DNA of 31,422 nt from a virus, in IMG/VR virus record IMGVR_UViG_3300045922_000987, positions 1-31,422 of that record; one strand, written 5' to 3'. Both the position numbers and the translations under genes were made by a program. Positions 1-20,004 of the stretch are shown piece after piece (the stretch's first letter is position 1; the number at the start of each line of letters is the position of its first letter). Below the pieces are notes generated by a model. It had not been told where the DNA came from. It did not search any database and saw nothing but the letters and a program-made list of their open reading frames with translations.

Positions 1-2
1 GT

Positions 3-680
3 CGCCAGGTCCGCAACAAGTACGGGGCGGTGTTGAAAGGCATCCTGCGGTGCGGCAGTTGTGAGGCAGGCATGGCCCACACCTACACGCAGAAGGCGCC
101 GAACAAACTCTACCGCTATTACGTGTGCGTGAACGCTCACCAGCAAGGTTACGACCAGTGCCAGACGAGGTCGGTGTCCGCGCCACAGATTGAGCAGGCC
201 GTCGTCGACCAGATCCGCGGCATTGCCGCGAATCCATCCGTGGTCGATGAGGTGGTCCGTCAGTTGGCCGAACAGCAGAGCATCCACCGGGAGGCACTCG
301 AACGCGAGAAGCGGGTGATGGAGAGGGAGTTGAGCCGTCTCGCGGCAGAGATCCCGAGCTACGTCCGGACGGGCGGAAAGCACGTCGCCGACAAGATGGC
401 GGAGTTGCAGGATCGAATTAATGTCCTGGAAGGGCAGTTGCGATCGGTGTGCGACCAACTCGCTGAGACTGTCGACCAGATCACCGATCCGGCGTCGGTG
501 CTCCGGGCTCTGCGGGAGTTCGACGTGCTGTGGGAGGAGATGAAGCCGCGCGAGCAGGAGAAGTTCGTCAAGACGCTCGTGGAGAAGGTCACCTACGACG
601 GGCGGACCGGCAAGGTGACGGTCGGCTTCCGGACGGCGGGGATCCGGCAGCTGTGTATCGATGTGAGGACCAGTAAATGA
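3..680 (+). CDS. Large serine recombinase, C-terminal part (5' end outside the window)
   Basis: The frame is open from the first bases of the window, so the catalytic N-terminal domain lies off the left edge; about 225 residues are visible. The visible part starts with the recombinase zinc-ribbon domain: a Cys-x2-Cys pair in LRCGSC, then cysteines in YYVCVNAHQQGYDQC. Two helical, probably coiled-coil stretches follow, and a C-terminal segment with LWEEMKPREQEKFVKTLVEK, typical of large serine recombinases. Such enzymes integrate and excise phages or other elements by recombining short att sites. The stop overlaps the start of the next gene by ATGA, so the two are probably co-translated. The family call is strong. 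Whether it is the integrase of this prophage or of another element is inferred from position only. Confidence 0.9.
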   Translation, partial: RQVRNKYGAVLKGILRCGSCEAGMAHTYTQKAPNKLYRYYVCVNAHQQGYDQCQTRSVSAPQIEQAVVDQIRGIAANPSVVDEVVRQLAEQQSIHREALEREKRVMERELSRLAAEIPSYVRTGGKHVADKMAELQDRINVLEGQLRSVCDQLAETVDQITDPASVLRALREFDVLWEEMKPREQEKFVKTLVEKVTYDGRTGKVTVGFRTAGIRQLCIDVRTSK

Positions 681-1132
681 AGCAGGAGTCGATAACCTTC
701 GAGATCGAGTTCAACCTGAAGCCGGGAGTGCGGGCCATTAACCGGCCCGGCGGCCAAAAGCCCAAGGAAGGGGCGGCACGAAGCCGCTTCGACCGATATC
801 CCCGTATCGTGCAAGTAGTCGCCCTCGCGATCCACTTTCAGGACATGCTGGAGCGGGGCGAGGTCCGGAACCACGCAGACCTCGCTCGCCTGGGTTGCAT
901 CAGCCGCGAGCGGATGAGCCAGATCATGATGCTCGGCTGGCTGGCGCCGGACATCCAGCAGGAGGTACTCAGCCTCCCGAAGACCCCGGGGGGCCGATTC
1001 CCGGTGTCGGAGACGAGGTTACGGTCGATTGCGCGGCTGCCATCATGGATAGAGCAGCGGACGGAATGGCAGGTTCTAGCCCAGAACTCGCCACAAGCGG
1101 AAACCGCTACTGCAAAGATTCAGACGGCGTAG
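677..1132 (+). CDS. Small HTH protein coupled to the serine recombinase
   Basis: A 151-residue protein that starts inside the recombinase stop codon (ATGA overlap), with GAGGA about 8 bases upstream of the ATG. Residues 65-100 look like a helix-turn-helix of the ParB/KorB kind: NHADLARLGCISRERMSQIM is followed by a segment rich in leucine and proline. The N-terminal 40 residues are basic and contain AINRPGGQKPKEG. I do not recognise a named family. The tight coupling suggests a DNA-binding partner of the recombinase, for example a directionality or att-binding factor or a repressor of the recombinase gene; this is inference. A hairpin terminator lies about 70 bases downstream. Confidence 0.75.
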   Translation: MKQESITFEIEFNLKPGVRAINRPGGQKPKEGAARSRFDRYPRIVQVVALAIHFQDMLERGEVRNHADLARLGCISRERMSQIMMLGWLAPDIQQEVLSLPKTPGGRFPVSETRLRSIARLPSWIEQRTEWQVLAQNSPQAETATAKIQTA

Positions 1133-1345
1133 CACCTTGACGTCAATCCCCGGAGGTGTATATTAAAGGTTCCTTATCTACCCCGTGTAGAAGGAGATCT
1201 GACGCCGCCCCAAAGGCGGCGTTTGTCGTCTCTCACCAGCATGTTCTTTGAAGGAAGAGGCAGGAGTTGCCGAAGGACCTTGCTACAACGCAGCAGACCG
1301 CCGCACTTCCATGTCGATAAGAGAACGAGAGACATAGAGGAAAAC
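1133..1345. other. Intergenic region between convergent genes, with an imperfect dyad
   Basis: This 213-base gap separates the recombinase operon from the oppositely directed unknown module. It contains an imperfect dyad around 1172-1192 (TCTAC, then five bases, then GTAGA), an orphan ribosome-binding-like AAGGAGAT with no start codon after it, and the terminator hairpin at 1202-1222. Sites next to serine recombinase genes are often attachment sites, so the dyad is a weak att candidate. I see no credible gene here. Confidence 0.4.
1202..1230 (+). terminator. Hairpin terminator after the recombinase operon
   Basis: A perfect 8-bp stem (ACGCCGCC at 1202-1209 with GGCGGCGT at 1215-1222) closes a five-base loop CCAAA. 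It is followed by TTGTCGTCT. It lies between converging genes and probably ends transcription of the recombinase operon. The T-run is short, so the efficiency of intrinsic termination is uncertain. Confidence 0.65.
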
Positions 1346-2818
1346 TCATCGTCTTGTTGTGTCTTTGTCCCCTGCTTCTGCAACTCGATGGCTCACCGAG
1401 GTTTCGAACAGCGTGCTCCAGAGCATTCGAGTGCGAGTGAATTGAAAGGGCGTGATCTCGAGTCCCATCCACTCCTGAAGTCGGAGCGCGAGGCGAAGGA
1501 TGTCTTTGTCGTCGCCTCGACGCGTCAGCTTGCCTCCGTTGCGAAGGAACTCCAGGAGTACTCGCCCCTCGGCGGTGGGGCGGCCCGTCTGGTCGGCCAA
1601 ACCGAGGGTGCGAAGGTCATATTCCTCCGTTCGGACGCCGAAGCGCTCCGCCGCCTCAAGATCGGTACGGGGTGCCGTCTCTTCCGAGATTGTCCTGGCG
1701 GCGAAGACCTCCTTGGTTCGAACGGAGATGGCGATACGGCCATCGGGCAGTTCCGTGAATCGGCATTCGTCCCACCGCTGTGGCTGCACCGGGAAACCGT
1801 CAGTGCGATCCAGGCTGATATGGAACAAGCACCGGTAGCCTCCGGTCCCGTGCATCGCGCGGATCGGATCGCCGTCGATGGGGAACACTGTCGATAGACG
1901 CTGCCGGAGGTCACTGACCTGCTTGCGGAAGTTGGCAGCCTGTTTGCCCGATGTTGTTCTACTGAGGGCCGGTGTCTGGCCGCCCTTACTCGCGAATAAG
2001 GAAAGGAGGTGCCACAGACGATCGTCCGGTCCTGACATCCCCATGTTCTCGAAGCCGAACTCTATTTCCCTTTCTCGAAGCCGCGCCACGATGCTGTGCT
2101 CCCGGACCACCAGACGGAGTTCGTCCCATGTTGCGTCTGCCGGGACCGGGAAGCTGACCACCGTTTTCGCTGGCGCGCTTTCTCCGTTCCGAGGCAGTGC
2201 GTCTGCAAGGTAATCGAGGTCGATGACAATGCGGTCGTACGTAATACTGGCTAGGTCGGCGAGGCGGAAGGCAGGCGACTTTCGTTCGGATGGCGTCTGG
2301 CAGGGAACCAGGATGACTGGCGAAGGCGCGTCCTCTATGTGGCGGCACTGATCCCAAAGCATGTGCGCGTCCTCGCGGGCGGCGCCGACGACGAAGAAGA
2401 AGTCGCGGAAGCGCCCGGCTACGTGGCGGCGGCCAAGAAACCAGACCCGACCGGGCAACAGGACGGAGTCATTGCCAATCAGCCCGAGCCCGCGGCGTGT
2501 TGCCTGGGCGATCGCATCGAGGTCGATGGCCCAGCGGCGGAGGCGCTCGATTGACACACTGGCGCCGCCGTTTTCAGGGCACGGGACGAACGGCGCCGAC
2601 CTGCCGGTGGTGGCGTTCTGGAGCCAGGCAACGTTTTCGACGTGACCGTCGCCGCATGCCTCGCAGCGGGCCCACGTCGCCCGGTCTGTTTCCTTCAGCA
2701 AGCCCAGGTTGCAGAGGAGTTCGAACTGCCCATGCAGCGCCCACTCGATCTCCTCCGCCGAAAAGACGGGCTCCTCGCACTCGGCGCGGGACCAGATGAC
2801 GCGGAGCAGATCACTCAT
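1346..2818 (-). CDS. Unknown protein B of two-gene module, Cys-rich N-terminus and winged-helix-like region
   Basis: A 490-residue protein of no family I recognise. Near the N-terminus are C52, C55, H59 and C80, spaced like a small zinc knuckle (RCEACGDGH, then FVPC). Residues about 265-336 look like a winged helix of the OmpR/SARP kind: a short helix LWHLLSLF, a recognition-like helix VSDLRQRLSTVF, then a beta wing ending GTGGYRCLFHISL. The C-terminal 90 residues are charged and helical. The start overlaps the stop of the 389-residue gene by eight bases, so the two are translated together. A DNA-binding sensor or regulator is a reasonable guess, but the biochemical role is unknown. The opposite strand is also open in places, but its translations are arginine-, leucine- and serine-heavy shadows. 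Confidence 0.75.
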   Translation of the reverse strand: MSDLLRVIWSRAECEEPVFSAEEIEWALHGQFELLCNLGLLKETDRATWARCEACGDGHVENVAWLQNATTGRSAPFVPCPENGGASVSIERLRRWAIDLDAIAQATRRGLGLIGNDSVLLPGRVWFLGRRHVAGRFRDFFFVVGAAREDAHMLWDQCRHIEDAPSPVILVPCQTPSERKSPAFRLADLASITYDRIVIDLDYLADALPRNGESAPAKTVVSFPVPADATWDELRLVVREHSIVARLREREIEFGFENMGMSGPDDRLWHLLSLFASKGGQTPALSRTTSGKQAANFRKQVSDLRQRLSTVFPIDGDPIRAMHGTGGYRCLFHISLDRTDGFPVQPQRWDECRFTELPDGRIAISVRTKEVFAARTISEETAPRTDLEAAERFGVRTEEYDLRTLGLADQTGRPTAEGRVLLEFLRNGGKLTRRGDDKDILRLALRLQEWMGLEITPFQFTRTRMLWSTLFETSVSHRVAEAGDKDTTRR

Positions 2819-3980
2819 CGTTTGCGATCCCCCAGTCGCGAAGGCAGCGGCGGAGGATCAGATCTTCGTCGCTGTCACGGAGAGAGCAACCGGCAGGATG
2901 CGTGATCGTGAAATTCACCGTCTTCGGCCGCTTCCGCCCGTTCTCGAACACCGCTTGGAAGGCCGCCTGTGTGACGCGGAACTTGTCGCGTGGCAACCGG
3001 GCCTCATTGAGGGCCTCGGCCACAAGATCGAGTGCGCTCTTGCGGGAGTTGCGACCGCCGGCGTCGAAGATAATGCGTCCGTCGTCGTTCCACTTTTGCA
3101 GCCGGATCGACTTCAGCCGAATGTACAGGATCTTGTCTTCGGGGCGTGTCGGGAAACGGAAGTGGGGGTTCAGCAGTGGCTGCAGGTCATATGGCGGCTT
3201 CGGAACACGCTTCGGTACTTCGTCGACACCCAGGACCGTCCGCGCGAAGATGCCGGCCAGGTTCTCGCGGACGTCGGCACTTCCCTCAGCGTAGAGTTCC
3301 GCAGTCCCGGTGTTGCGGTCGAACATGACCACAACTTCAAACGCCGGTTTCCATTCCTTGCGGGTGAAGTTGCCGTCCTCCTCGTAGCAGATCATCGTGT
3401 CGGAATAGTCGGCCGGGTAGGTGAAAAAGAAGTCGATGTGACTGGAGCGGACATAGTGCTCGACCTTGCAGTGCTCGCCGCGCCCCTGGGCCTCCTGGTA
3501 ATACCGCGAGACGGCCGCTCCGAACTGCTCGAGGGTGAGTTCGTTGATGGCCGGCGCCATCTTCGGCATCCCGTTGCGCTTCTCGGTCGACCGGCGAGGC
3601 AGGCTTTCCCAGTGCGCCAGCGCCTTCGCCTCCTCGAAGATCGCGGGGTGTTCGAGGAAAACCCGGAAGGCGCGCTCGTAGGAATTCGATTGCTTCTGCA
3701 CGGCATTGGTGAGGTCGACGCCGTGCTCGCGCGCCACCTGGATCAGCCAGGGAGTGTACTCGCGTGCCGCCATTTCCCACACCGCGCGGAATTGGCCGCA
3801 GATCTCCCGCGATTCCGCTTCCGGCAGTTGGATGATGGCGTCGTGGACAGCTTCGATACCCGTCTCGGAGAGCTGGTCCCACTGGATTTCTTGGAGTTGG
3901 CTTCGCTTCGCGAAGTAGTCCTGCAACAGTCCGTTTGGCACGTGCCGCAGAAACGCTTTGGGGGTGAAGTGCATGGGCAT
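2811..3980 (-). CDS. Unknown protein A of two-gene module
   Basis: A 389-residue protein with no recognisable family. I chose the ATG at 3980 (MPMHFTPKAF) because AGAGGA lies about seven bases upstream; the frame stays open to 4160 but the extra residues look non-coding. The first 150 residues are helical. The middle is rich in aromatic residues and strands (HIDFFFTYPADYSD, FEVVVMFDRNTGTAELYAEG), reminiscent of a small beta domain. The C-terminal 130 residues contain KILYIRLKSIRLQKW and end in a charged helix. No catalytic motif, signal peptide or membrane segment stands out. It is the first gene of a two-gene operon with the 490-residue gene. It faces away from the early phage genes and sits next to the recombinase, a common place for cargo such as superinfection or defence functions. 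That role is inference. Confidence 0.75.
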   Translation of the reverse strand: MPMHFTPKAFLRHVPNGLLQDYFAKRSQLQEIQWDQLSETGIEAVHDAIIQLPEAESREICGQFRAVWEMAAREYTPWLIQVAREHGVDLTNAVQKQSNSYERAFRVFLEHPAIFEEAKALAHWESLPRRSTEKRNGMPKMAPAINELTLEQFGAAVSRYYQEAQGRGEHCKVEHYVRSSHIDFFFTYPADYSDTMICYEEDGNFTRKEWKPAFEVVVMFDRNTGTAELYAEGSADVRENLAGIFARTVLGVDEVPKRVPKPPYDLQPLLNPHFRFPTRPEDKILYIRLKSIRLQKWNDDGRIIFDAGGRNSRKSALDLVAEALNEARLPRDKFRVTQAAFQAVFENGRKRPKTVNFTITHPAGCSLRDSDEDLILRRCLRDWGIANDE

Positions 3981-4220
3981 ACCGATCCTCTGGATGGACC
4001 GAGGCCAGCAGTACCCGAGCAAGCGTTTTACATGGCTGCCGGGAATTGGGGGGACCGGCCTGGAAAGTCCGGGGTGATTAACATGAGCCTCGATTCTAGC
4101 ATGGCGAACAGAAGGCGAAACTTTTCCACGAGCCAAGCGCCTGATGACACTCAGGATCAAGTGTTTGACTGGATCCTGCCTGTGGAAGCCTGTGGAAAAC
4201 TACCACTCGCGGGGGCGCGT

Positions 4221-4235
4221 TTGTGAGCTTCACAA
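4221..4235. promoter_or_regulatory. Operator-like dyad 1
   Basis: TTGTGAGCTTCACAA is a perfect dyad with six-base arms and a three-base centre. It shares the TGTGA/TCACA half-site with the dyad 117 bases downstream. It lies in the divergent gap before the early operon, where a phage repressor or activator would bind. The binding protein is unknown. Confidence 0.5.
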
Positions 4236-4338
4236 TTCCGTCGAGGGGTCCGGAGAGAAAAATTTGACCCGAGAGCAAAAATCTTCACCCGTCTTTTCAA
4301 TCACATAGCTTTCGCATCGCTCGCCCGCAGCTCCGGAA

Positions 4339-4352
4339 TGTGAAAGTTCACA
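4339..4352. promoter_or_regulatory. Operator-like dyad 2
   Basis: TGTGAAAGTTCACA is a perfect dyad with six-base arms around AG. It uses the same half-site as the dyad at 4221-4235 and lies 23 bases before the first early start codon. That position is suited to repressing the early operon or its leader. Confidence 0.5.
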
Positions 4353-4375: not shown

Positions 4376-4714
4376 ATGACTTCACCTGCTACGAACCCTC
4401 CGAAGCGGAATGAGGACGCCACCAAGGCGCCGCCGGCGATCACTGCGGCGCACGAGGCCCTCGTCCGCGACTCCTTTGACGACATTGCCTTGCTGGTCGG
4501 CTCCGCCGCCGCCATCTACAACCTCGACGACGACATCCTCTGGACGGTGATGAAGCGGCTCGACCGGATCCGCGTCCGGCTGCTCCGCAACCTGAGTGGC
4601 GCGACCGGGCGCGAGGAGTTTGAGCCGACTGCCGTTCGGCCGCCGCGAACTCACCCCGCCGTTGATGAATTCCTGGCACGCAATCGCGGCCGGATGGGGG
4701 AGAGCGCCGCATGA
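4376..4714 (+). CDS. Small unknown early protein
   Basis: A 112-residue protein starting at an ATG preceded by a purine-rich AGCAGGGAAA; an upstream in-frame GTG at 4340 falls inside the operator-like dyad and is less likely. Residues about 25-75 form an amphipathic helical region (AHEALVRDSFDDIALLVGSA and MKRLDRIRVRLLRNL). The C-terminus is basic and proline-rich. I do not recognise a family. It is the first gene of a long plus-strand operon and its stop overlaps the next start by ATGA. First genes of phage early operons are often small regulators or host-takeover proteins, but nothing in the sequence shows the role. Confidence 0.65.
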   Translation: MTSPATNPPKRNEDATKAPPAITAAHEALVRDSFDDIALLVGSAAAIYNLDDDILWTVMKRLDRIRVRLLRNLSGATGREEFEPTAVRPPRTHPAVDEFLARNRGRMGESAA

Positions 4715-5052
4715 TTCGCCCGACCGCTTTTCATGACCTTTCGCCGGAGCGCGCGCGGCTCGTGCGGCTGTTTCAGACGATCAACTTCGGACGGATCGAG
4801 GAACTGGAGATCCGTAACGGCGAGCCGCAATTCAGCCCATCACCGAGGGTCTTCGTCGAAGTGAAGCTCGATTCTGAAGATAGCCCGCGTCCGGAGTCGC
4901 GGCTCAGCGACTTCGCCTTGCGGCGTCCGATTGAGCGGTTCTTCGAGCAGGTCGCCCGTTTGGAAGACGGCACTATCGAGCGGATCGAGGTCCGGCACGG
5001 GCTGCCATTCCGGATGATCGTCGAGGCTGCGCCGGCGGGGGTGTTGTCATGA
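4711..5052 (+). CDS. Small unknown early protein
   Basis: A 113-residue protein with GGGGGAGAG ten or so bases before its ATG. It has a mixed alpha/beta look and two similar short strands, GRIEELEIRNGEPQF and GTIERIEVRHGLPF, which suggests an internal duplication of a strand-turn unit. No family is recognised. It overlaps both neighbours by ATGA, so it is translated with the 112-residue protein upstream and the sigma-like protein downstream. Confidence 0.65.
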   Translation: MIRPTAFHDLSPERARLVRLFQTINFGRIEELEIRNGEPQFSPSPRVFVEVKLDSEDSPRPESRLSDFALRRPIERFFEQVARLEDGTIERIEVRHGLPFRMIVEAAPAGVLS

Positions 5053-5573
5053 CGCCCGCCGCTGCCACCATCGATCCCTTCGCTCTCCAGCAAGCCGGGA
5101 TTCGCGCGAGCCAACTCGTCGCGTCTTTCGGTTTCCATCGCGCCGACTGGGACGATCTGCGCCAGGACTTACTGCTCGACTACTTGAAGCGCAGCCGCCA
5201 CTACCAGTCGGGGCGCGGCGAACACCGGGGCTTCATCTTCGGCGTCGTCCGAAATCGTGCCGCGCGTCTCGCCATCCAGAACGGCCGGCGTCCGACGTTC
5301 ATCAGCGGCGTCGACGACCGGGTGCTGATGCGGAACTCGTGCGCCTGCCTGGCAGAGCCGTCCGCGCCGATCGAACTGCAGATGGATGTGCGCAAGGTTG
5401 TCGCGTCCCTTCCGGAGCACCTGCGCGAGGTTGCCGTGCTGCTCAGCCGGATGTCGGTGGCCGAGGTGAGGCGGGAGACAGGCAAATCGCGGCCCCGGAT
5501 CTACCAGATGATCGGCGAGATCCGGCAGGCTTTTCAGGAAGCGGGCTTGGCACCCAGCGGAGGTGCTCGATGA
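5049..5573 (+). CDS. Sigma-70-like (ECF-type) protein
   Basis: A 174-residue protein with the two-domain plan of a small sigma factor. Residues about 28-80 resemble region 2: DWDDLRQDLLLDYLKR, then GEHRGFIFGVVRNRAARLA, matching the usual acidic DADDLxQ-like helix and the WLxxIxRN helix. Residues about 110-165 resemble region 4: VVASLPEHLREVAVLLSRM, then a helix-turn-helix SVAEVRRETGKSRPRIYQMI. The match is by pattern only and the -10 recognition residues are divergent. It could direct RNA polymerase to phage promoters, or be a sigma-derived regulator that no longer binds polymerase. Its position at the head of the replication operon fits a switch role. It overlaps both neighbours by ATGA. Confidence 0.7.
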   Translation: MTPAAATIDPFALQQAGIRASQLVASFGFHRADWDDLRQDLLLDYLKRSRHYQSGRGEHRGFIFGVVRNRAARLAIQNGRRPTFISGVDDRVLMRNSCACLAEPSAPIELQMDVRKVVASLPEHLREVAVLLSRMSVAEVRRETGKSRPRIYQMIGEIRQAFQEAGLAPSGGAR

Positions 5574-14845: not shown

Positions 14846-16111
14846 GTGACTTTCGCTTCCGTTTGTTCCGGCATCGAAGCAGCAACGGTTGCCTGGGAGC
14901 CCCTTGGCTTCCGTGCAGCCTGGCTGGCCGAGATCGATTCGTTTTGCTCTGCGCTGCTGGCGCACCACTATCCCGATGTCGAGAACCGTGGCGATTTCAG
15001 CCGGATTGACCGGGGATCGGGCGCAATCGACGTTCTGGCCGGAGGAACTCCATGCCAGTCGTTTTCAGTCGCCGGAAGACGAGGCGGCCTGGAGGACGCA
15101 CGCGGTAACCTGGCCATCGAGTTTTGCCGCCTTGCTGGCAGACTCCGGCCTCGCTGGATCCTCTGGGAAAACGTCCCCGGTGTTCTGTCGTCGAACGGCG
15201 GACGGGACTTTGGTTCCATCATCGGGGCGCTGGCAGAACTCGGGTATGGTTGCGCCTGGCGAGTGCTGGACGCTCAGTTCTTCGGAGTGCCCCAGCGACG
15301 CCGTCGCGTCTTCGTTGTCGGACACTTTGGAGACTGGCGGCGTGCCGCGGCGGTACTACTTGAGCGCGCGGGCCTGTGCCGGAATACTCCGGCGTGCCGC
15401 AAAACGCGGGAAACAGTTGCCAGCGGTTCTGTACGTGGCGCTGAGGTCGGTCCTTTTGGAGGCCGGTTTACGGACCTAGCTCCGACGCTCGATGCGCGGT
15501 GCAAGGACAGCGCGATCCGAAATCAGATTGGCCTGCTGGTGTTCGGCGGCGGGAACACATCGGGGGTGATCGACGTCGCGACAGCACTGACCCATCACGG
15601 GGTGCGCCAGGATTTCGATACGGAGACGTTCGTCGCGCACACGCTTCGTGGTGACGGATTTGACGCCAGTGAGGATGGGACGGGGCGCGGCACGCCGATT
15701 ATTCCGATGGCTTTTTCATCAAAGGACCACGCCGCGGATGCAGGTGGGACGGCGCCGACTCTCCGGGCGATGCCGCACCATACGAGCCACTCGAATGGCG
15801 GCGGCCAGATCGCAGTCTGTGTTCAGGAAGGTCAAACAGGAGTTCGGGAGTACGAAACTGCGGGAACGGTACGGTCTGACGCGCCCGGTTCACAGCGGGG
15901 AGGGAGCCTCATCCGTGATCGTTATGCGGTGCGGCGGCTGACGCCGCGCGAGTGCGAACGGCTGCAGGGATTTCCGGACGACTACACGCTGATCCCGTAT
16001 CGCGGCAGACCTGCCGCAGATGGGCCAAGGTATCGAGCAATCGGAAACTCAATGGCTGTTCCGGTCATGCGGTGGATCGGCCGGAGGATGCAATTGGTGG
16101 ATGCGCTGTGA
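14846..16111 (+). CDS. DNA (cytosine-5) methyltransferase
   Basis: A 421-residue C5-methyltransferase. The motifs are in the classical order: FASVCSGIEAATVAW (SAM binding, residues 3-17), GGTPCQSFSVAG with catalytic C70, ENV at 108-110, QRRRRVF at 150-156, LTPRECERLQGFPDDY at 365-380, and AIGNSMAVPV at 398-407. The variable target-recognition region spans about 165-355. It starts at GTG 14846; the frame is closed by a stop at 14816-14818 and no ATG is available. It would methylate C5 of cytosine in a short site, protecting phage DNA or changing expression. No partner restriction enzyme is nearby, so it is a solitary phage methylase. Its stop overlaps the next gene by GTGA. Confidence 0.93.
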   Translation: MTFASVCSGIEAATVAWEPLGFRAAWLAEIDSFCSALLAHHYPDVENRGDFSRIDRGSGAIDVLAGGTPCQSFSVAGRRGGLEDARGNLAIEFCRLAGRLRPRWILWENVPGVLSSNGGRDFGSIIGALAELGYGCAWRVLDAQFFGVPQRRRRVFVVGHFGDWRRAAAVLLERAGLCRNTPACRKTRETVASGSVRGAEVGPFGGRFTDLAPTLDARCKDSAIRNQIGLLVFGGGNTSGVIDVATALTHHGVRQDFDTETFVAHTLRGDGFDASEDGTGRGTPIIPMAFSSKDHAADAGGTAPTLRAMPHHTSHSNGGGQIAVCVQEGQTGVREYETAGTVRSDAPGSQRGGSLIRDRYAVRRLTPRECERLQGFPDDYTLIPYRGRPAADGPRYRAIGNSMAVPVMRWIGRRMQLVDAL

Positions 16112-17568
16112 TTGCGGCACTACTCAGACAGACTGAATTGTGGCCTGTGGAGCGGCTCGTGCCGTACGCCCGGAACCCGCGGACCCACAACGAGCAGCAG
16201 GTGGCGCAGATTGCCGCTTCGATCATGGAGTTTGGCTTTAACAACCCCATCCTGGTGGACTCGCAGGCTGGCGTGATTGCGGGCCATGGACGGTTGCTCG
16301 CGGCGCGGAAGCTGGGGATGGCGAGCGTGCCGGTGATCGTGCTGGACCACCTCGACGAGAATCAGCGACGGGCGTACCTCGTCGCGGACAACCGGCTGTC
16401 GGAGCTTGCGGGTTGGGACTCGGAGTTGCTGGCGCAGGAACTGAAGGAGCTTTCGGAAGCTGGGTTCGACGCGACACTCGCCGGTTTCGACGCCAAGGAG
16501 ATCGACGATTTCATCGCGTCGCTGGAACGAGGAAGCGAGGTCGCTGAGACACAGCAAGCTGAGGCGCCTATACCGGAGGTGCCGGAAGAGGCGGTGACAC
16601 GCCCCGGTGATCTGTGGTTGATCGGCCCCCACCGCCTGATCTGTGGCGACTGCCGGGATGCGGCTATTGTGTCGCGGCTCTTCGAAGGGCGGAAGGCCAA
16701 CGTGGTGGTCACCTCGCCGCCGTATGCCACGCAGCGGCAATACGACCCGTCGAGCGGTTTCGAACCCGTGCCGCCGGAGAAGTACTCCGCCTGGTACCGG
16801 GCCGTTGCGTCAGCGATCGAGTCCGTGCTGGCTCCTGACGGATCCTACTTCCTGAACATCAAGGCGCATGCCGAGGACGGCGAACGGCACACCTACGTGA
16901 TGGATCTGGTGCTGGCTCACAAGCGGCACTGGGGTTGGCGGTTCGTCGATGAACTCTGCTGGCGCAAGACGGACGACGGTGTGCCGGGCGGCTGGAACAA
17001 CCGCTTCAAGAACGCGTGGGAGCCGATCTTCCACTTTTCGCGGGGCCGCACGATCAAGTTCAACCCCCGAGCCGTCGGGCACTGGTCGGATGACTGTTTC
17101 GACTACTCGGCGGACAATCCTAGGTCGACGTCCGGAAGCGGACTCCTGGGAACTGGCCCTCGTGGCGCGGCGGCGGACAAAGGCAAGAACCATGGCGCTT
17201 GGCAGACTACGCGCCGCAACGCGAACGACATGGAAGGCCGGCGCGGTGGAGTGGCCCGGCCATCGAACGTGATCGAGGCCAAGACCGAGTCGAGCCAGGG
17301 ATCGCACTCCGCGCCTTTCCCACGAGCCATTCCGGAGTTCTTCATCAAAGCATTCACCGATCCCGGTGATCTGGTCTTCGATCCGTTTACCGGGAGCGGG
17401 ACCACCCTCGTCGCTGCCGCGCAACTTGACCGCATGGGCCACGGCGTCGAGATCAGCCCGGCCTACTGCGACGTGATTTTGCGGCGGCTCGAGGAAGCGC
17501 TCAACCTTACGCCTGTCCACGCCGCGACAGGCCAACGTTTCTCAACTCAAACCCCTTCGAAGGAGTAA
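16108..17568 (+). CDS. ParB-domain DNA methyltransferase, SPPY type
   Basis: A 486-residue fusion starting at GTG 16108, inside the previous stop codon. Residues about 10-95 are a ParB/Srx-like domain (PVERLVPYARNPRTH, then VIAGHGRLLAARKLG). The methylase follows: motif IV SPPY at 203-206, then motif I FTGSGTT at 427-433, the beta-class order of N4-cytosine or N6-adenine enzymes. SPPY is commoner among N4-cytosine enzymes, so N4C is favoured but not certain. The insert between the motifs (about 300-410) is large, rich in glycine and arginine, and probably holds target recognition. ParB-type domains in such enzymes may help bind DNA or hydrolyse nucleotides. A related enzyme with DPPY lies 1.2 kb downstream. 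Confidence 0.9.
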   Translation: MIAALLRQTELWPVERLVPYARNPRTHNEQQVAQIAASIMEFGFNNPILVDSQAGVIAGHGRLLAARKLGMASVPVIVLDHLDENQRRAYLVADNRLSELAGWDSELLAQELKELSEAGFDATLAGFDAKEIDDFIASLERGSEVAETQQAEAPIPEVPEEAVTRPGDLWLIGPHRLICGDCRDAAIVSRLFEGRKANVVVTSPPYATQRQYDPSSGFEPVPPEKYSAWYRAVASAIESVLAPDGSYFLNIKAHAEDGERHTYVMDLVLAHKRHWGWRFVDELCWRKTDDGVPGGWNNRFKNAWEPIFHFSRGRTIKFNPRAVGHWSDDCFDYSADNPRSTSGSGLLGTGPRGAAADKGKNHGAWQTTRRNANDMEGRRGGVARPSNVIEAKTESSQGSHSAPFPRAIPEFFIKAFTDPGDLVFDPFTGSGTTLVAAAQLDRMGHGVEISPAYCDVILRRLEEALNLTPVHAATGQRFSTQTPSKE

Positions 17569-17574
17569 TCACAC

Positions 17575-18033
17575 ATGCCCGAAGTAGCTACCCCGAACCA
17601 GGCCGAGCGGGAGTTCGAAACCGCCTCGGACGAGTTCTTCAAGAACCAGAGCCAGGTCAACGCCGGTTACGGCAATGTCCTTTTCGCCAACATCAAGCGG
17701 ACCTACGACGAGTACCAGCAGGAATCGCTGGAGTCGATCAAGCGCAACCGCACCATCGTGGACAAGCTGGTCTCCGACGCGCAGCAGTTCGACAACCAGC
17801 GTCAGGTGATCGCCAACCAGGCGCTGCAGAACGCCGTCGAGACTTCCAACATGGTGGCCAAGCAGGCCGTGCGCCACTCGGACATCGCCATTGACAACCA
17901 GTGGAACCCGGTCCAGCAGGGCGCGGCCGACACGATGCTCGCGCGCACGATGACCATCGATGACGCGAGCCTCAAGGCGATCGGCTCGGTGGTCGCCGCG
18001 GCGGTCGCCGAAGCGCTGTCCAATCGCAAGTAG
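17575..18033 (+). CDS. Helical small phage protein, unknown
   Basis: A 152-residue, almost fully helical protein with AAGGAG ten bases before the ATG. It is rich in Asn, Gln and Ala, with heptad-like stretches (QRQVIANQALQNAVETSNMV) and an alanine-rich C-terminal helix (GSVVAAAVAEAL). There is no signal peptide or membrane span. The composition is loosely like small self-assembling proteins such as R-body subunits, but the match is too weak to call. A strong hairpin terminator follows, so it ends the transcript that began with the methyltransferases. Confidence 0.7.
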   Translation: MPEVATPNQAEREFETASDEFFKNQSQVNAGYGNVLFANIKRTYDEYQQESLESIKRNRTIVDKLVSDAQQFDNQRQVIANQALQNAVETSNMVAKQAVRHSDIAIDNQWNPVQQGAADTMLARTMTIDDASLKAIGSVVAAAVAEALSNRK

Positions 18034-18054
18034 TCCTTCTCCCCCGCCGCCAGA

Positions 18055-18099
18055 GAGGGGCGGTCCTGATTCCTCCGCTGGGCCGCCCCTCGCCTTTTC
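18055..18099 (+). terminator. Intrinsic terminator hairpin
   Basis: A 12-bp stem with one G-U pair (GAGGGGCGGTCC at 18055-18066 with GGGCCGCCCCTC at 18080-18091) closes a 13-base loop and is followed by GCCTTTTCT. It lies 21 bases after the stop of the helical protein gene. The stem is very stable. Some transcription may pass, since the next plus-strand gene starts only 20 bases further on. Confidence 0.75.
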
Positions 18100-18111
18100 T
18101 GAGATTCACCC

Positions 18112-18474
18112 ATGGCCGACACAAGCCGCTTTGCCGTCGAAGCCCGTTCGCTCGGGAAGGTTGCCGTCGCCGTGCCAGGTTCGCCGGTGCGCGTCACGGT
18201 CGACGAAAACCTGCGCGCCGTGCGGATGCGATTCGCTCCCTTGATCGGGGAGACCGGGCGCATGTTCCTGGGTGTGGCCGGGATGAACAAGGCGACGGGT
18301 GCGGGCGTGATCAAGGAGTTCTGGCCCACAGGCGTCGGTGGAGGGGTGGCCGACGAGCTGGTCCTTGAATCAGCGCACGGACTCCGGCCTGCGGATTACT
18401 GGATCGACGCCAATGTTGCCGGCGAGGGGCTGCTCGTAGCGTACTGGGTCCCGACACCGTACTGGGCGCCATAA
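18112..18474 (+). CDS. Small unknown phage protein, beta-rich
   Basis: A 120-residue protein dominated by strands and glycine turns: VAVAVPGSPVRVTVDE, then GETGRMFLGVAGMNKATGAG, then ADYWIDANVAGEGLLVAYWV. This composition is typical of accessory virion or host-surface binding proteins, but no named family is recognised. It starts just after the terminator and is followed by a small hydrophobic protein. The ribosome binding site is weak (GAGATTCACCC). Confidence 0.65.
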   Translation: MADTSRFAVEARSLGKVAVAVPGSPVRVTVDENLRAVRMRFAPLIGETGRMFLGVAGMNKATGAGVIKEFWPTGVGGGVADELVLESAHGLRPADYWIDANVAGEGLLVAYWVPTPYWAP

Positions 18475-18547
18475 TCCCATGCTGCGCGAACTGCGGATCG
18501 GGCTGCGGCTGCGACCGATTATGAACAGGTTTCAGGAGTTGACCAAG

Positions 18548-18748
18548 ATGAAGTTCTCTGTGAATGTTGCCATCCAGATGCTGGCGCTTGCCGCTCAGGG
18601 TCTGAACGCCACGATGGAACTGTTGCCCGGTCGCGGCAAGTTCTGGGCGATGGTCGGGCTGTCTGCGGTGCAAGGCGTGACGGCCGTGCTCGCCCACTTC
18701 GCAAACCCTGACGGCACGCCGGCGCAGGTTGCCTACCTCAAGAAGTGA
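18548..18748 (+). CDS. Small hydrophobic phage protein ending in NPDGTPA motif
   Basis: A 66-residue protein; CAGGAG lies nine bases before the ATG at 18548, which favours it over in-frame starts at 18479 and 18521. A mildly hydrophobic stretch (FWAMVGLSAVQGVTAVLAHF) could be one membrane segment or a buried helix. It ends NPDGTPAQVAYLKK, an ending I have seen in small phage proteins of unknown role. It overlaps the next methyltransferase by GTGA. A holin-like role is conceivable but not supported by charge or topology. Confidence 0.6.
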   Translation: MKFSVNVAIQMLALAAQGLNATMELLPGRGKFWAMVGLSAVQGVTAVLAHFANPDGTPAQVAYLKK

Positions 18749-20004
18749 ACACCGATCTCCAAATCGAGCGCTGGTCCGTCGATCGGCTGATTCCGTATGC
18801 CCGCAATGCGCGTACGCACAGCCCGGAGCAGGTCGCGCAGATTGCTGCGTCGATCGCGGAGTTCGGCTGGACGAATCCCATCCTCGTCGGTGCCGATGGC
18901 GTCGTGATCGCCGGCCACGCCAGGCTGCTGGCCGCGCGAAAACTCGGAATCTCCGACGTTCCGGTCATCGTTCTCGATCACCTCAGCGATTCACAACGCC
19001 GCGCGCTGGTCATTGCTGACAACCGCCTCGCGCTGAACGCAGGTTGGGATGAAGAGATGCTGCGCGTCGAACTCGAGGCGCTGCGCGAGGATGAGTTCAA
19101 CCTGGATCTGCTTGGCTTCGGCGTCGATGAGATGGATGCACTGCTCGCGGAACCGGAAGCCGCAATCGCCGGCAACACGGACGACGATGCGGTCCCGGAG
19201 ACGCCCGAAACCGCGGTGACGGTGCCCGGCGATGTCTGGCTGCTCGGGGATCATCGGCTGCTTTGCGGCGACGCCACGCAGATCGATTCCGTGGAGAAGG
19301 TGCTGGCCGGGGGACTCGCGGACATGGTCTTCACCGATCCGCCCTACAACGTGAACTACGGGGCGACGATGAAGAACAAGTTGCGCGGCAAGAAACGGAA
19401 GATCGCCAACGACAACCTCGGCGACGGCTTCGAACAGTTCCTCCGCGATGCGTGCACAAACATCCTGACGGTCACCAAGGGCGCGGTCTACATCTGCATG
19501 TCCTCGTCCGAGCTGCACACGCTGCAGAAAGCGTTCCGTGATGCGGGCGGCCACTGGTCCACGTTCGTCATCTGGGCCAAGAACACCTTCACCATGGGCC
19601 GCTCCGATTACCAGCGGCAGTACGAGCCGATCCTCTATGGGTGGAAGGAAGGCTCGGACCACTTCTGGTGCGGAGCCCGCGATCAGGGGGACGTCTGGTT
19701 CGTCAAGAAGCCCGTCTCCAATGACCTGCATCCGACGATGAAGCCGGTTGAACTGGTGGAGCGCGCCATCCGCAACAGCAGCAAGAGCCGGGACACTGTG
19801 CTCGATCCGTTTGGCGGTTCGGGATCGACGCTCATTGGCTGCGAGAAGGCGGGCCGCCAGGCGCGGCTGATCGAATTGGAGCCGAAGTATTGCGACGTGA
19901 TCGTCCGGCGCTACCAGGAGTTCAGCGGGAAAGAAGCCACACTCGAGGCGGATGGCCGGCGGTTCGCAGACTTGGCCGCCGAACGCCTGGGAGTAGCGGC
20001 ATGA
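18745..20004 (+). CDS. ParB-domain DNA methyltransferase, DPPY type
   Basis: A 419-residue enzyme starting at GTG 18745 inside the previous stop. Residues 8-95 are a ParB-like domain that aligns with that of the SPPY enzyme almost without gaps (WSVDRLIPYARNARTH, then VIAGHARLLAARKLG). The catalytic part has motif IV DPPY at 198-201 and motif I FGGSGST at 356-362, the beta class expected for N6-adenine methylation. It looks like a sister of the upstream enzyme that kept the N-terminal domain but carries another catalytic domain. The short insert with LRGKKRKI may contact DNA. It would protect or mark phage DNA at a second sequence. The stop overlaps a frameshifted small gene. Confidence 0.92.
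   Translation: MNTDLQIERWSVDRLIPYARNARTHSPEQVAQIAASIAEFGWTNPILVGADGVVIAGHARLLAARKLGISDVPVIVLDHLSDSQRRALVIADNRLALNAGWDEEMLRVELEALREDEFNLDLLGFGVDEMDALLAEPEAAIAGNTDDDAVPETPETAVTVPGDVWLLGDHRLLCGDATQIDSVEKVLAGGLADMVFTDPPYNVNYGATMKNKLRGKKRKIANDNLGDGFEQFLRDACTNILTVTKGAVYICMSSSELHTLQKAFRDAGGHWSTFVIWAKNTFTMGRSDYQRQYEPILYGWKEGSDHFWCGARDQGDVWFVKKPVSNDLHPTMKPVELVERAIRNSSKSRDTVLDPFGGSGSTLIGCEKAGRQARLIELEPKYCDVIVRRYQEFSGKEATLEADGRRFADLAAERLGVAA

Follow-up and report, generated by a model that had tools for sequence, protein, structure and literature searches.

Lambda RexA and its actinophage homologues are temperate-phage proteins of the RdgC/IML3-CHL4 fold group, each encoded in an immunity region beside a partner gene, and lambda RexA has been described as built on the scaffold of this group, as binding DNA non-specifically and as biasing the lambda switch (PMC11077077). 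The kinetochore proteins Chl4 and Iml3 structurally resemble RdgC and TBP (PMC4080450). The corresponding CENP-N/CENP-L pair (Chl4/Iml3) combines a helical N-terminal part with a TBP-like part and grips DNA, and RdgC is a host nucleoid protein that has no winged-helix partner. As for transcriptional control, CI/Cro-type repressors, which occur with ImmA, lie between the integration and the early modules and act on operators in the early leader, and the winged-helix regulators of the OmpR/PhoB family, together with CadC, use dyad operators by promoters.

The locus compared with these systems here lies in a virus record from IMG/VR that is 31,422 bases long, was analysed over its whole length and is called the window. 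Beside a large serine recombinase it carries two overlapping genes, A and B (Table 1), which form a real, widespread and conserved two-gene module; that the module would be an undescribed system had been put forward in an earlier note, and it indeed has no described counterpart. The reading that fares best, with a chance judged slightly better than even, is that A and B together make up a two-subunit, DNA-binding regulator of early or lysogenic transcription, encoded between the integration functions and the early genes.

Table 1. Features of the A-B locus, with positions in the window
Feature	Position	Strand	Remark
Recombinase, C-terminal part (large serine recombinase, zinc beta ribbon)	1..680	+	cut by the left end of the window
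g677, recombinase-associated HTH-like protein	677..1132	+	landmark across the slot from B
Cargo slot, empty, 213 bp	1133..1345	.	occupied in relatives
Gene B	1346..2818	-	490 aa, ATG start
Second winged-helix copy, B residues 343-478	1385..1792	-	hhalign against the first copy
First winged-helix domain, B residues 218-342	1793..2167	-	OmpR/PhoB-like structural match
Gene A	2811..3980	-	389 aa, ATG start; phrog_37634 member
O1, operator-like palindrome TTGTGAGCTTCACAA	4221..4235	.	
Conserved core AAAAATCTTC ... TTTTCAATCACATAGC between O1 and O2	4277..4309	+	
O2, operator-like palindrome TGTGAAAGTTCACA	4339..4352	.	centre 117.5 bp from O1; end 23 bp 5' of the e4376 ATG
e4376, first early-operon gene	4376..4714	+	112 aa; no Pfam match

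The open reading frames agree with what the earlier note had described, namely proteins of 389 and 490 residues that overlap by eight bases (2811-2818) and face away from the plus-strand early operon. The ATG at 3980 is supported as the start of A because the relatives start at the same point. Between the window and its sibling L046, a provirus in the chromosome of Bryobacterales bacterium F-183 (A 94% identical), the differences at codon positions 1/2/3 number 16/7/67 in A and 52/41/157 in B, and the third-position excess, counted against three relatives, indicates that both proteins are under selection and evolve as coding genes. A long plus-strand reading frame antisense to A (2709-4226) was judged spurious, because codon bias places the coding frame in A, and an A-B fusion in L143, suspected from a single open frame at a contig end, was not relied on. 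Both proteins are mildly acidic, with a pI of 6.3 for A and 6.0 for B, which is a point against the regulator reading.

The proposal that neither protein belongs to a known family holds for the Pfam, NCBIfam and PADLOC profiles, none of which matched the window's A or B, but has to be amended for PHROGs, where A matches phrog_37634 over its full length (residues 5-387, E 4.4e-30), a family listed as being of unknown function, whereas the window's B has no match there. Sequence searches of phage and plasmid records for relatives of A and B returned none at E 1e-5 and chance matches only at E up to 10, and sequence-profile searches of the PDB with A and B gave no credible match.

The position of the sibling in the Bryobacterales F-183 chromosome identifies the host group as Acidobacteriota. 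Relatives of A occur both as parts of prophages and on phage contigs, in Acidobacteriota, Pseudomonadota, Planctomycetota and other groups, the A profile matching 35 of 349 Pseudomonadota genomes (10% of the sample) and 4 of 396 Acidobacteriota genomes. The loci compared comprised 38 related phage contigs, collected by a scan with the window's Sak4-like gene, and 28 bacterial-genome loci and 27 virus contigs, collected by scans with the A alignment. Whether the pair recurs in other integrated elements had been raised as a question, and it does so, linked, in many prophages: in each of the 56 primary loci in which the contig continues, the gene directly behind A on its strand is B, at a distance of -65 to +10 nt, and two more loci end at a contig edge. 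With the window's genes mapped onto the relatives, one arrangement prevails, recombinase - g677 - A - B - e4376 - e4711 - ..., in which all genes are co-directional. The window and seven phages close to it (L006, L007, L046-L049 and L051) differ in that the A-B block alone is inverted in place, so that the placement on the opposite strand, to which the earlier note had pointed, is a peculiarity of one subclade and not typical. The pair again adjoins a recombinase in Alphaproteobacteria; a LexA-like HTH gene precedes it in L158 and L159, and in L162 and L163 it is found with tyrosine integrases, beside restriction-modification genes.

The pair had also been placed in a cargo position beside the recombinase. 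It does adjoin the recombinase, but it is not cargo: by our own tally A-B occupies 22 of the 27 resolved slots among the Sak4-related phages, phages seemingly devoid of the pair carry a more distant A and B at the same site, and in four of the five slots held by something else inspection by eye recognised another protein, HTH-like at its C-terminal end. The true cargo slot is the next one, between B and the recombinase/g677. Since A-B keeps a fixed position and the cargo sits elsewhere, the possibility that the pair is optional defence cargo was ruled out, and the pair is a core module.

The structural model of A (mean pLDDT 82.7) predicts a helical N-terminal part (residues ~1-125) followed by two alpha/beta parts (~128-261 and ~263-389). 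CENP-N/Chl4 entries fill the top eight structural rows (Z 8.1-8.9; Foldseek E 1.8e-4 for CENP-N), the best Z of 8.9 bordering on the noise range of the search tool, and are accompanied by TBP (Z 7.6), RdgC (Z 7.2, residues 126-389 of A, rmsd 7.8 Å), CENP-L (Z 5.6) and RnlA (Z 5.1), RexA being absent among the matches listed. The likeness to CENP-N is one of fold alone, as CENP-N/CENP-L share 5-11% identity with A and a profile of 51 A sequences did not match any chain of CENP-N up to E 10, and it does not imply a segregation role for A. Similarly, Pfam, and with it the RdgC family PF04381, matched none of 12 A members, and hhalign gave a probability of 0.5% for A against RdgC and 0.4% for A against four RexA sequences. 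It has to be noted that RdgC against RexA, which are known fold relatives, itself reached only 0.1%, so that hhalign cannot decide on a sequence kinship of A with RexA or RdgC. On the basis of the model, A is predicted to have a CENP-N/TBP/RdgC-like fold, of the group to which lambda RexA belongs, as a resemblance of fold only.

In B, the cysteine-rich N-terminus to which attention had been drawn corresponds to a Cys3His set (C52, C55, H59 and C80) that is invariant in 31 long B proteins and lies in an N-domain of residues 1-215. The winged-helix-like region reported at 265-336 is likewise borne out, by a match of model residues 233-338 to winged helices of the OmpR/PhoB type (BaeR Z 6.3, CadC 6.0, VanR 5.9, PrrA 5.6, PhoP 5.5), a family that fills all top seven structural rows (Z 5.4-6.3) at scores of only about 6. 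It is followed by a homologous second copy, missed by the earlier note, so that the C-terminal part of B consists of one domain duplicated in tandem (hhalign of the halves 97.8%, E 9e-13). B differs from the OmpR/PhoB family in this duplication, in its Cys3His N-domain and in lacking both a receiver domain and a PF00486 match, Pfam having matched none of 13 B members. Weak matches to phage transcription regulators were obtained with B (phrog_836, E 0.0055; phrog_7950, 0.048; phrog_4583, 0.061). Other B proteins keep the N-domain and have the DNA-binding end swapped, with at least three other HTH-type C-terminal kinds, so that the C-terminal DNA-binding domain is interchangeable. The recognition-helix sequence of the first winged helix varies between the operator classes described below.

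A and e4376 diverge from a shared region of 395 bp, and O1 and O2 lie in it. Every one of the eight inverted-subclade phages has dyads of the form TTGTGA...TCACAA at this leader, against a background of ~3 per 716 kb, and the window has one additional site with one mismatch. Phages with the usual gene order have other palindromes, likewise paired just 5' of e4376, such as CCGTGGAATTTTCCACGG, present twice in L017 and in L023, and AGGGTGAAAATTCACCCT, present twice in L042. The test for a pair was passed by 18 of 33 e4376 leaders, by 0 of 330 shuffles and by 0 of 30 relatives in which B or the slot gene is a different one; four more leaders (the window, L006, L007 and L046) carry a looser pair of the same two dyads and miss the strict test because their own two sites differ by several letters. 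The centres of the paired sites are mostly 107 bp apart (105.5-106.5 bp in three phages, ~117.5-119 bp in the window group and L050, 129.5 bp in L047), and these classes differ by steps of ~11 bp, or about one helical turn. The stretch between the sites includes a conserved core, GAAAAATCTTC ... TTTTCAA..ACATAGC, which may represent an early promoter or origin element; a sigma-70 promoter scan near O1/O2 found nothing above chance.

The operator class requires the minimum number of steps on the trees of A, B, e4376, e4711 and g677, and fits worse on those of the nuclease and Sak4. As g677 and e4711 are also found in phages that have no palindrome pair, A-B (with the long B) and e4376 remain the companions of the operator in this clade, e4376 being present with the long, tandem winged-helix B and absent from short-B phages. 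Only B among them has a recognised sequence-specific DNA-binding fold, but e4376 co-occurs with the palindrome pair equally well, which speaks against the regulator reading. Among the distant long-B phages, L079-L082, L052 and L056 yielded no such palindrome pair, which is therefore no general companion of the long B, and none was found 5' of A in Alphaproteobacteria. The early operon also contains a gene for a sigma-70-like protein (5049-5573, plus strand; Sigma70_r2 E 0.0068, under the Pfam cut-off), which could be the reader of the O1-O2 core; as a reader of the operator it is disfavoured by the tree of its gene, on which the operator class takes 9 steps against a minimum of 6.

In the proposed mechanism, B would read a specific operator via its interchangeable C-terminal domain, and A, through its RexA/RdgC/CENP-N-type fold, would contact B and the DNA backbone and bridge two operator sites. 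The resulting A-B complex on O1 and O2, which are ~11 helical turns apart, would loop the early-operon leader, whereby early transcription would be controlled, most simply repressed, in a role of the CI or Cro type. A-B shares with the CI/Cro-type repressors the position between the integration and early modules and, as candidates, operators in the early leader, but consists of two obligate genes of other fold families and can coexist with an XRE/ImmA system. Such coexistence is seen in two alphaproteobacterial prophages (L157 and L164), where A-B heads the early operon, divergent from an XRE repressor and an ImmA-like peptidase; this arrangement suits the regulator reading, but A-B cannot then be the sole repressor everywhere. 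HTH_3, S24 and ImmA domains were absent from the window, from the F-183 provirus stretch and from four of five related contigs, records that may be incomplete. If the regulator reading is true, a wide range of temperate phages employs a regulator of two subunits, so far unannotated, where CI and Cro act, which would explain how prophages that have no recognisable repressor maintain lysogeny, and the RexA/RdgC/CENP-N DNA-gripping fold would have a second use in temperate phages, with concrete candidate operators. A more far-reaching version, clearly more doubtful and offered only tentatively, is that A-B is a CI-free phage switch in which a clamp of the CENP-N/RexA fold and a DNA reader with swappable domains loop two phased operators, as a prokaryotic relative of kinetochore CENP-L/N.

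The main rival explanation, which is considered unlikely, is that of a replication initiation or recombination complex, with B as an origin-binding initiator, O1-core-O2 as the phage origin and A as an RdgC-like DNA clamp loaded there. Genes for Sak4, an SSB-like protein, a nuclease, a RecD-like protein and a primase-helicase adjoin the pair, the core is A-rich and flanked by two dyads, and the fold match of A to RdgC (Z 7.2) would suit a clamp; plasmid initiators also have tandem winged helices. However, unrelated DNA-binding ends are exchanged in B while the replication genes stay constant, the palindrome pair lies in the leader of the first early gene, just 5' of its start codon, the Sak4 and nuclease trees are not at minimum steps for the operator class, and around A-B no iteron array and no convincing tandem repeats were found.

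Appreciably less probable is the second rival, a Rex-like superinfection exclusion in which A would be a RexA analogue made in the lysogen and B its partner or regulator. The fold group of A, the orientation of A-B in the window's subclade, where it is read away from the lytic operon, and the frequent defence-gene neighbours are consistent with it, but the invariant partner of A, B, is a DNA-binding protein with tandem winged helices, whereas RexB is a membrane protein. Moreover, A-B is co-directional with the early operon in most relatives and is nearly universal in its slot among its own phages, unlike optional exclusion genes. From the suggestion that genes so placed serve defence, exclusion or lysogeny, a lysogeny-type role survives as the best reading, whereas no PADLOC defence model matched A or B at E up to 10. 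The third-ranked and weakest rival, control of integration or excision, with A-B assisting the serine recombinase as an accessory complex such as a directionality factor, is improbable, for although the recombinase and g677 are always nearby in the primary clade and the architecture of B is of a DNA-binding kind, the palindromes lie at the early operon rather than at the recombinase, several relatives have a separate small excisionase-like HTH gene, and the integrases that accompany A-B in L162 and L163 are tyrosine integrases.

The neighbouring genes, named by sequence reading unless a profile match is cited, are varied in the cargo slot. In L006 (400-3135) it holds the defence ATPase IetA (PADLOC E 6e-68) and a large subtilase-like gene, in L046 (12081-14026) a radical-SAM-like gene with a second, overlapping open reading frame, and in L056 a SIR2-like gene. 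The slot of L007 (1060-4644) encodes a 949-aa protein whose N-terminal part is CHAT-like and which contains TPR repeats, and, in the divergent direction, a papain-like peptidase of the C92 family; the two are a possible candidate for an undescribed defence pair. Three small genes, resembling those for a DUF433-type antitoxin, an aspartyl-protease-like protein and a short unknown protein, lie in the slots of L049 (11627-12668) and L051 (11621-12673). The slot of A-B itself is taken, at L020:3294-4115, L034:2676-3482, L013:4057-5046 and L030:5840-6664, by an unclassified protein family with an HTH-like C-terminus. Further along the window, at 14846-20004, a cytosine methyltransferase gene and two genes for ParB-like/DNA-methyltransferase fusions can be recognised by sequence reading, and two of these three methyltransferase-type genes fall within a stretch of ~14.8-17.5 kb that is absent from the F-183 provirus.
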